Assembly (NCBI GenBank): GCA_017536895.1
Contig: JAFWCN010000014.1
Location: 1 to 41,626 of the forward strand
Length of the DNA stretch: 41,626 bases
DNA from: Candidatus Saccharimonadota bacterium
Lineage (GTDB): Bacteria; Patescibacteriota; Saccharimonadia; Saccharimonadales; Saccharimonadaceae
Reading direction: 5' to 3'
Shown: positions 6,159 to 8,546 of the stretch, piece after piece
Numbering within the stretch: position 1 is the first letter of the stretch
Layout: the number at the start of each line of letters is the position of its first letter
Program-made: the position numbers and the translations under genes
Notes under the pieces: model-generated
The model's input: only the letters and a program-made list of their open reading frames with translations
What the model was told of the DNA's origin: nothing
Database searches by the model: none

Positions 6159-8546
6159 TTATTTTTCAATATGGAATGTAATATTTCTAGTCTTCTGGCC
6201 TTCAGCCTGATAAATCGTGCCTGGACGGATCATCGCGTCTGGATATTTTTTCTGAACATCCTTCAATGCCTCCGCATAATTTTTATCCGTCGTCACAGTC
6301 AAATCTTCAGTTTTACGATTTTTCACGTTAATCTGTTTTTTATGCGACATTTGTGTCAAAACCTTGTCAAGGTCAATTTCAAATCCTGCCGCATACGGAG
6401 CTAATTTAAACTCATTTCTCACCGAATTCTTAAATTCACCCACCACGCCAACACACTCACCATTAACTTTAATCTCTGCTGACCTCTTTGCTTCAAACGG
6501 CTTAGCCTCCGCGGACTTATTGCTCTTTAGCGGTACATAATCTGCCACGACATTCAATTCTTCAAGCAATTTTGCCACGTATTTTTTTGCTTTGTAATAT
6601 GCCGTTTCATTATTTTTCCTCTCGGCTACCACGAAGCCCAGAGACTTCTTTTCTACCGGTACTTTTTCATCCGTAAAACCAAGCTCTTTTCGATAAACCG
6701 TATTCATTTCATAAATCGCAAATTTGTCTACTGGCAATTTCTCGTTCATGTAAGCCTTATCAAGTAAACTCGGTACAATAGACTGTCGAACCAATTGTAA
6801 GTCCGGCGAAATCGAATTCACAATCCTGTAAGAATTCTTTATATCTAACCCGGCTTTCTTCAACAATTGCTCACTTACGAAACTATAAGTAAGAAGTTCG
6901 TTTGCCCCATATCTTGCCATCCAATCACGGATGATTCGCTTCATTTCAAACATCTTATTTTTTTCAGCAGTATAATGTGGCGGCAATACGGGCTCAATAT
7001 TATCATATCCAAGCAAGCGCCCGACCTCCTCTATGATGTCTTCTGGGATATGAATATCCGTTCGCCACTCCGGTACGGTAACAGTTAACCCATTACCATC
7101 ATTATTTATCTGAAATCCTACGTTCCCTAATGTCTTTGTGATTAATTCGGTAGAATAATTTGTTCCGAGCAAGTCGTTTATCTCATTTGTTGTAATTTTT
7201 ACAACGATTTGTTTTTCAGGGTTTGGATATTCATCTACCATGCCAGCTACTTTGAAACCATCTGACAACATCTCTGCACATTTCTCAGCCACCGTCATCG
7301 TTTGATATGGCGGCTGCCCTTTCGTATAACGTGTAATTGCCTCCGAGAAAATTCCATGCGCCATCTGGGTTTTCCTGAGATTATAAAGCGAGAAAGTCGC
7401 CACTTCAAGCAAAATGTTGCGCGTGTTTTCATCAATCATTGTTGATTTGCCACCTTTAGCTCCGGCAAGACCCACTGGTACATCGTTTGACGTAATTACG
7501 ATATCGTTTTCATTTAACACTACTTCTGTATCATCAAGTAGCACCAACTCTTCGCCCTTCTTTGCTAGCCGGACCGTCAAAACTGCTTTGTCAGTTTTCC
7601 CAACTTTTACAAACTTATCATAATCGTACGCATGTAAAGGTTGTCCAGTAAGTAACATAAGATAGTTCGTCGCATCAACAATCGGACTAATAGGCTTCAT
7701 TCCGGATTTCGCAAGCACCGTATCGATATAGGTCAAGTATTTCTTCTTGATTTCACCATGCTTCTCCATCACCACCACCGTCAGTCTCGGACAAATTGTG
7801 TTGTCAGAGATAGTAATGGTTGGCAAAAGTTTGGAATACACTTTTTGAGGGCTTTCGGAGGTTACGACCGCTCGCCGAAGGCGTAGCGTAGCGTCGAATG
7901 AGGGCGCTTCGCCCGTGACGACGGGCCGAAGCGACCCGTCCCTCAAAAAGTCGTATTCAAACTTTTGCCCCAAAATTCCACTAACTTCTCTGGCAAACCC
8001 AATCATTCCGAAACAGTCCGGTCGATGCGTCAAGGATTTGTTTTCGATATCAAGAATCTTATCATTTAACTCAAATACATCCGCGAGCAAATCTCCCGCT
8101 TTCGCCATTTCCGGATCAATTTCAATAATTCCTTCATGGTCCTCACCAATATCTAGCTCGTCTGCCGCCGCCAACATCCCATGCGAATCATATTTACCGA
8201 GCATCTTACGAGTACCAATCACAAACGGTGCATCTTCATGTACCGACGCTGGCACCACCGCTCCAGGTGCAATCCACGCCGCCAACATCCCCTCATGTAC
8301 ATTCGGCGCCCCACACATCACCTGTACTAGTTCATCACGACCACAGTCAATCATACATTTAGTCAAATGTGTATCCGGTATTTTCTCGGCTTCAACCACT
8401 TTTACTACATAAATCTTGTCGTATTTATGCGTCTCGTCTATTACGTCTTCAACTTCTACTAGTCTCGCGCCGATTAATCTCACCAATTCATCGTCCGAAA
8501 CTTTAATGTCTACAAATTTTCTTAACCAATTTAGTGAAATTCTCAT
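6159..8546 (-). CDS. pheT: Phenylalanyl-tRNA synthetase beta subunit, with in-frame palindromic insert
   Basis: The 795-residue subunit runs from MRISLNWLRKFVDI through the tRNA-binding EMAP-like domain (about 40-150), the B3/B4 editing domain, the B5 domain (VVKITTNEINDLLGTNY), the catalytic-like core (RRxIxDxxxxxGxxELLTYSF type) and the C-terminal anticodon-binding FDX-ACB domain ending in NITFHIEK. It pairs with PheS as an alpha2beta2 enzyme charging tRNA-Phe. It starts 1 nt after the pheS stop. In the linker between the tRNA-binding and B3/B4 domains (about residues 193-241) the gene carries an imperfect palindrome of about 148 nt that is translated in frame as an Arg/Ser-rich segment. 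No frameshift is seen, so the enzyme should be functional. Confidence 0.95.
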   Translation of the reverse strand: MRISLNWLRKFVDIKVSDDELVRLIGARLVEVEDVIDETHKYDKIYVVKVVEAEKIPDTHLTKCMIDCGRDELVQVMCGAPNVHEGMLAAWIAPGAVVPASVHEDAPFVIGTRKMLGKYDSHGMLAAADELDIGEDHEGIIEIDPEMAKAGDLLADVFELNDKILDIENKSLTHRPDCFGMIGFAREVSGILGQKFEYDFLRDGSLRPVVTGEAPSFDATLRLRRAVVTSESPQKVYSKLLPTITISDNTICPRLTVVVMEKHGEIKKKYLTYIDTVLAKSGMKPISPIVDATNYLMLLTGQPLHAYDYDKFVKVGKTDKAVLTVRLAKKGEELVLLDDTEVVLNENDIVITSNDVPVGLAGAKGGKSTMIDENTRNILLEVATFSLYNLRKTQMAHGIFSEAITRYTKGQPPYQTMTVAEKCAEMLSDGFKVAGMVDEYPNPEKQIVVKITTNEINDLLGTNYSTELITKTLGNVGFQINNDGNGLTVTVPEWRTDIHIPEDIIEEVGRLLGYDNIEPVLPPHYTAEKNKMFEMKRIIRDWMARYGANELLTYSFVSEQLLKKAGLDIKNSYRIVNSISPDLQLVRQSIVPSLLDKAYMNEKLPVDKFAIYEMNTVYRKELGFTDEKVPVEKKSLGFVVAERKNNETAYYKAKKYVAKLLEELNVVADYVPLKSNKSAEAKPFEAKRSAEIKVNGECVGVVGEFKNSVRNEFKLAPYAAGFEIDLDKVLTQMSHKKQINVKNRKTEDLTVTTDKNYAEALKDVQKKYPDAMIRPGTIYQAEGQKTRNITFHIEK
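7822..7969. repeat. Palindromic insert inside pheT
   Basis: Two 30-nt arms, 7822-7851 and 7940-7969, are inverted copies (GGCAAAAGTTTGGAATACAC on the left against GGCAAAAGTTTGAATACGAC on the right, both continuing as TTTTTGAGGG). The GC-rich centre holds smaller hairpins, such as CGC-T-CGCC-GAA-GGCG-TA-GCG and GGGCG-CTT-CGCCC. The outer arms encode host protein sequence. It is richer in GC than the surrounding gene and falls in a linker between domains. Confidence 0.8.

Follow-up and report, generated by a model that had tools for sequence, protein, structure and literature searches.

A palindrome in the pheT reading frame

Does a long palindrome that sits in frame inside pheT, the gene for the phenylalanyl-tRNA synthetase beta chain, belong to this gene, or is it a mobile sequence that the protein has come to carry? 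The question arises from the stretch of DNA analysed here (the window), 41,626 nucleotides of a Candidatus Saccharimonadota genome (assembly GCA_017536895.1, contig JAFWCN010000014.1, positions 1 to 41,626). A single inverted repeat was called in the pheT region, with 30-nt arms at 7822-7851 and 7940-7969 that are 83% complementary and separated by 88 nt. The call reproduced exactly the palindrome at 7822-7969 that the first-pass annotation, produced by a model without database searches, had placed within pheT with the frame kept, and indeed the pheT reading frame crosses it without a stop. The same annotation had predicted a very stable hairpin, and this held for the computed fold: on the pheT strand the palindrome folds at -81.8 kcal/mol compared to -47.3 ± 3.9 kcal/mol for shuffled sequences (z -8.84, 0/200 shuffles). 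Its assignment to the linker between the tRNA-binding and B3/B4 domains also held, as the flanking Pfam domains are tRNA_bind (residues 46-148) and B3_4 (residues 272-429). The 88-nt middle, described there as GC-rich, is more than that; it is a conserved, branched core that is repeated across the genome. The features of the locus are as follows.

6159..8546, minus strand: pheT, phenylalanyl-tRNA synthetase beta chain, 795 aa, the host gene (open reading frame and Pfam)
7822..7851, no strand assigned: arm 1, the 5' arm when the core is read on the plus strand (inverted-repeat call)
7849..7942, plus strand: conserved core of the repeat family, 94 nt in pheT and 70 nt in most copies
7860..7869, plus strand: small hairpin GGTTACGACC inside the core
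7871..7894, no strand assigned: 24-nt extra segment, a multiple of 3
7902..7937, plus strand: large core hairpin GGGCGCTTCGCCCGTGACGACGGGCCGAAGCGACCC, with compensatory changes among copies
7940..7969, no strand assigned: arm 2, coding QKFEYDFLRD on the pheT strand (inverted-repeat call and PheT of relatives)

Arm 1 has an extra unpaired G near position 15 from the core, as do many copies, and the outer half of arm 2 is probably native sequence, judging from its match to conserved PheT (KFEY). The 24-nt extra segment was found in only three of the 18 aligned cores from this genome, those in pheT, der and tsaE/B (window 7871-7894, L002 and L003), where it occupies an identical position in the core and has a small hairpin of its own. 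It is missing from the der orthologue in a related genome, G085, and from the pheT orthologue in UBA2866. Its patchy presence likely reflects a recent and still visible change in the cores, for which copying between cores or a nested mini-insert can both be envisaged.

The palindrome is an insertion in PheT

The PheT proteins of many members of the same genus align to the window's PheT in two pieces only, residues 1-197 and 243-794, with nothing between them. In one of these relatives (L230) the linker reads GEKFEYKNPEEVLKADNSIKVKIVD and is 31 residues shorter. Because relatives lack the stretch, we regard it as an insertion. The proposal that about 49 codons had been inserted was only partly borne out: compared with the shortest relatives, the linker has gained ~31 residues net, as at least part of the KFEY-side arm belongs to pheT itself, the KFEY motif also occurring in relatives that have no insert. 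The expectation that an alignment would find the insert here alone was likewise met in part. Many relatives are without it, including the more distant ones, but two close species, UBA2866 (L225) and RGIG2550 (L226), carry it at the same place. An assembly artefact was considered as the source and is ruled out by the same insert in these independent assemblies of other species.

The arms of the pheT element have changed jointly across the three species, and the L225 and L226 cores fit one another better when one is reversed (54/70 identities inverted, 40/90 direct). Other species have different inserts in the same linker. The motif RAAALRR, present in the linkers of L228, L229 and L233, resembles the translated core of a second subfamily described below, and G085 has a second element further along pheT, at a position that is empty in the window's gene. 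An AlphaFold2 model (18 sequences) gave pLDDT values below 50 for residues 202-237 and an overall mean of 69. We read this segment as a predicted disordered linker, or one that was simply not predicted, with no defined loop; this is consistent with the surface loop that had been anticipated, although it rests on one host protein and a model of low confidence overall.

The pheT palindrome is one copy of a large dispersed family

A DNA search of the window's own genome with the pheT region returned 30 matched stretches. Thus, beyond what had been noted for this locus, the pheT palindrome is one copy of a large dispersed family. The copies have in common a core of approximately GGGCTTTCGGAGGTTACGACCGAGAATGAGGGCGCTTCGCCCGTGACGACGGGCCGAAGCGACCCGTCCC, while the arms that flank it differ at every site yet pair with one another. 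The element consists of a 70-nt structured core (70-94 nt) and arms of ~24 nt, roughly 120 nt in all, constant to within a few nucleotides. A covariance model built from the 18 aligned cores contains 23 pairs, nine of which show changes on both sides, and it matched 34 times in the genome; copy counts for this genome rest on such model searches. About half of these matches score lower, and most of them represent a second subfamily, with the core ...CGGAGCGCGGCAGCGCGAG....

Of 118 same-genus genomes, 109 had matches to the model, the largest number in one genome being 39, and weaker relatives of the core occur in eight other genera of the family. The named relatives that carry the repeat are mostly gut and rumen Saccharibacteria. 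Rfam covariance models run against six loci gave only chance-level matches, far below gathering scores, and no report of such elements in Saccharibacteria was found in the open-access literature that we searched, which leaves out most subscription journals. A different genus of the family has core matches arranged in inverted pairs, ~65-205 nt apart (G183:C4:400578-400933, G223:C2:62496-62728 and G240:C1:17761-17982); these could be the ends of a longer element.

Copies keep the host frame, with an apparent excess in tRNA-related genes

We checked 41 copies from the window's own genome and from others. Long open reading frames contain 36 of them, and the frame is open through the core in all 36. 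Three of the six frames are open in the common core variants, and our estimate is that about one in six random insertions would leave the frame open. For the window's own genome, 27 of the 30 matches examined fall in open reading frames of at least 217 aa. The hosts include pheT, leuS, ileS, truB, tsaD (two copies), tsaE/B, gatA, gatB, mnmA and a femX-like gene, as well as lepA, der, an rlmD-like gene, uvrB, priA, dnaX, O-antigen ligases, pepN and others; copies are also found in nrdG and between genes. About 11 of the 27 host frames encode proteins that act on tRNA; on the assumption that 9-15% of coding length belongs to genes of this kind, the binomial P is ~1e-5 to 1e-3. This apparent enrichment was seen at the own-genome loci L058 and L172-L200. 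A stricter notion, that hosts are solely tRNA-related, was dropped once family searches had identified the other host genes. From these sequences alone we infer that the inserts are translated as segments of their host proteins; no transcript or protein was observed.

Arms pair within each locus and change together

Across 44 distinct loci, the two arms of one copy pair at 18.9 of 24 positions, compared to 11.5 (sd 1.9) for arms taken from different loci. Pairing stays at ~0.8-1.0 for positions 3-25 from the core (at least 0.89 at positions 4-24) and then ends sharply, dropping from 0.84 at position 25 to 0.63 at position 26, where the background lies near 0.65. Among the arms a weak consensus is apparent; in many copies the 5' arm contains a single unpaired extra base at about position 15.

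Among the arm pairs of orthologous copies, 272 were unchanged; 48 had changed on both sides with pairing retained, and in 45 only one of the two species showed pairing. Some of the orthologous pairs in this comparison are distant, and independent insertion at a hotspot is not excluded for all of them. In femX, G085 and G112 differ by seven joint arm changes, with none broken. The cores can face either way with respect to the host gene, and at several sites they lie inverted between close species: the cores at L087/L149 match at 76/76 positions inverted and 50/102 direct, and those at L197/L211 are identical at 74/75 positions once one is reversed.

Several loci show where arm sequence came from. 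The right arm of L157 is present in the genome without the element (L168), and its left arm is an inverted copy of the right. Comparison of L163 with L171 shows a native outer arm on the left and an overwritten right side, and at L091/L147 one arm is native and the opposite arm its inverted copy. The idea of arms copied from the target in every case was nonetheless dropped as a general rule, given the weak arm consensus and some intergenic copies with common arms; three such copies in three genomes (L091, L122 and L159) have nearly identical arms. Two of these, L091 (own genome, C7:12299) and L159 (G085, C6:16855), lie at equal distance upstream of a TATAAT-like box. The sequence TTTGATTGCC on the L091 arm also occurs in a relative that has no element at that site. 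In the mnmA region of the own genome (L169, C9:5041) there is a left arm only, with neither core nor right arm; G085 has the full element there, and L169 is likely a relic.

Sites are re-used, and no mobilizer was found

Where one genome has a copy, the corresponding site in relatives may be empty or may be occupied by the same element, by an inverted one or by a different hairpin family. Relatives were found to carry at least four other families of hairpin-forming inserts, apparently unrelated, at the same host sites (L151/L140, L120/L132/L139/L220, L170/L209/L221/L122 and L206/L214), with cores such as ACGTATATTCCTGACGG, GGACCGTAAGCTTGGGCGAGCGCCCTTGAGCGTGTCC and GGAGGGGGTCCCCCACGAG.

A search for a Y1_Tnp transposase found none in the window's own genome and found it in only two of 60 same-genus genomes. 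Reverse transcriptase was also absent from this genome. RVT_1 reverse transcriptases occur in 39 of the 60 (for example L251 and L252), and copy number does not differ between genomes with and without one (p = 0.79). Five-mers common to both arm ends were seen at a frequency of 0.227 in cis and 0.144 in trans, with no clear duplication in empty-site pairs. No copy of the element was found in the phages, plasmids and viral contigs searched, and a search of the own genome for a master element with the left-end motif GGAGGTTACGACC gave 17 matches, all in known copies.

Discussion

Our data show a dispersed family whose genic copies retain the frame, are absent from relatives and re-use sites, with locus-specific arms that pair in cis and change jointly, and with cores that lie inverted at orthologous sites. 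The reading we favor, at a probability of roughly 0.75, is that the pheT palindrome is one copy of a short palindromic mobile repeat that works like the Rickettsia palindromic elements (RPEs), and that the family is a new RPE-like one in Saccharibacteria, with co-evolving arms. On this reading copies would enter genes, and those that survive would keep the frame, lie in surface loops or linkers that tolerate them and become a translated segment of the host protein. Homogenized arms and an inverted spacer are the reported outcomes of template switching between inverted repeats (PMC8604942). Arm homogenization and core inversion match these published outcomes, and we therefore think that template switching during replication maintains the palindromes, one arm being rewritten from the other and the core sometimes flipped; this step is inferred, not shown. 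Because template switching alone leaves the sharp 25-nt arm end unexplained, the insertion step probably sets the unit length. The element would be selfish or nearly neutral and would owe its persistence in essential genes to the rarity of precise deletion at such places. The process or enzyme that makes new copies was not identified and no transposition event was observed, so that the favored reading does not include a mechanism of spread. One reservation concerns orthologues of the own genome and G085. In most same-orientation pairs their arms differ by few changes and the flanks are mostly 84-93% identical; selection on pairing would give the same pattern, which may count against template switching.

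The closest rival holds that the arms were made at insertion, when ~12-24 nt of one target flank was copied inverted to the other side (an inverted target-site duplication), with no later template switching. In its favor are the sharp arm end in the 44 loci, the cores that are nearly identical while arms differ between loci, and L157, L163 and L091, in which the site, when empty or occupied by something else, contains the sequence of one arm, of which the opposite arm is an inverted copy. However, joint arm changes in orthologues of close species require a process after insertion, unless every copy was reinserted, and the weak consensus and the near-identical arms of L091, L122 and L159 indicate that arms are not wholly target-derived; we give this model well under an even chance. 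A bolder form, in which a mobile element inserts by fold-back copying and places a fixed-length inverted copy of the target flank around the shared core without a dedicated transposase, we consider unlikely. Equally doubtful is selection of the hairpins as mRNA structures, for example to tune the translation or decay of tRNA-related genes, with arms co-varying by ordinary compensatory selection. The strong folds, the covariation and the share of tRNA-acting hosts (the P value of which depends on the assumed proportion) would fit, but cores can run with or against the gene and are found flipped at one and the same site, orthologues in close species may have no insert or hold unrelated hairpin families, and copies also sit in O-antigen ligase, pepN, nrdG and intergenic DNA.

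Two further rivals fare worse. A classical non-autonomous transposon (MITE), or a REP element mobilized in trans by a Y1 transposase (RAYT), would account for the size, inverted ends and dispersal. This is very unlikely given the scarcity of Y1_Tnp, the lack of a clear direct repeat at the arm ends, a reverse transcriptase that is absent from the genome and unrelated to copy number, and the lack of any phage or plasmid match. Finally, the insert might remain untranslated, through ribosome bypassing like that of the byp elements of Magnusiomyces mitochondria or through removal from the mRNA. Palindromic inserts in protein genes are the known case of bypassing (cited in PMC6649704), and the very stable hairpin with arms unique to each site would suit it. 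A skipped segment, however, would not need an open frame, and the frame is open in 36/36 genic copies, which all but excludes this explanation.

The likeness to RPEs suggested by the first-pass annotation held as an apt comparison; its statements that the palindrome has been domesticated as protein and could affect translation remain inference, with no data bearing on them. RPE-1 to RPE-10 and the Wolbachia palindromic elements are likewise palindromic repeats of 100-150 nt in several families (PMC3767692; PMC10969869), inserted in frame in unrelated genes at solvent-exposed positions, with sites re-used by different families. Some host genes are the same (pheT, ileS, O-antigen ligase): RPEs are reported in pheT and ileS of Rickettsia (PMC3767692), and in Rickettsia japonica tRNA-modifying enzymes are among the hosts as well. 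The Saccharibacteria family meets the RPE traits of size and many copies per genome, of in-frame insertion in pre-existing, unrelated open reading frames and, for the one protein modeled, of a segment in a disordered region. It differs in its phylum and in arms that are site-specific, of near-constant length and co-evolving, with core inversion. Moreover, RPEs are said to lose repeat identity over time (PMC6649704), a trait not met here, as orthologous arms change jointly. We file the family as RPE-like in its working, by analogy, and not as a member of the RPEs; no sequence homology to them is claimed.

Other systems resemble parts of this picture. The coding palindromes of Nematomorpha mitochondria (PMC6649704) are also inverted repeats in functional coding sequence whose arms are kept matched, for which their authors proposed template switching. 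There, however, both arms code conserved host sequence and no mobile core is repeated, whereas the Saccharibacteria elements have a common core at many loci. Template-switch mutations at quasi-palindromes (PMC8604942) combine arm homogenization with spacer inversion, both of which are seen at our orthologous sites, but they are a mutational process acting on short inverted repeats and form no repeat family. REP/BIME elements and MITEs are short, dispersed palindromic repeats without a gene of their own. REPs usually lie outside genes and are associated with RAYT, whereas the copies described here are mostly intragenic in a genome without Y1 transposase.

Palindromic elements within reading frames were known mainly from Rickettsia and Wolbachia, and their mode of spread and the basis of their persistence have been unresolved ever since they were discovered. 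The Saccharibacteria family adds a second, abundant example from reduced-genome symbionts of an unrelated phylum, which partly occupies the same genes, and the question can now be approached by comparison. Many species of one genus have been sequenced, and their genomes allow a direct reading of how copies are gained and lost, how arms are converted and how cores are inverted. Many housekeeping enzymes of this genome would carry segments of roughly 40 residues derived from a mobile repeat, which bears on protein evolution.
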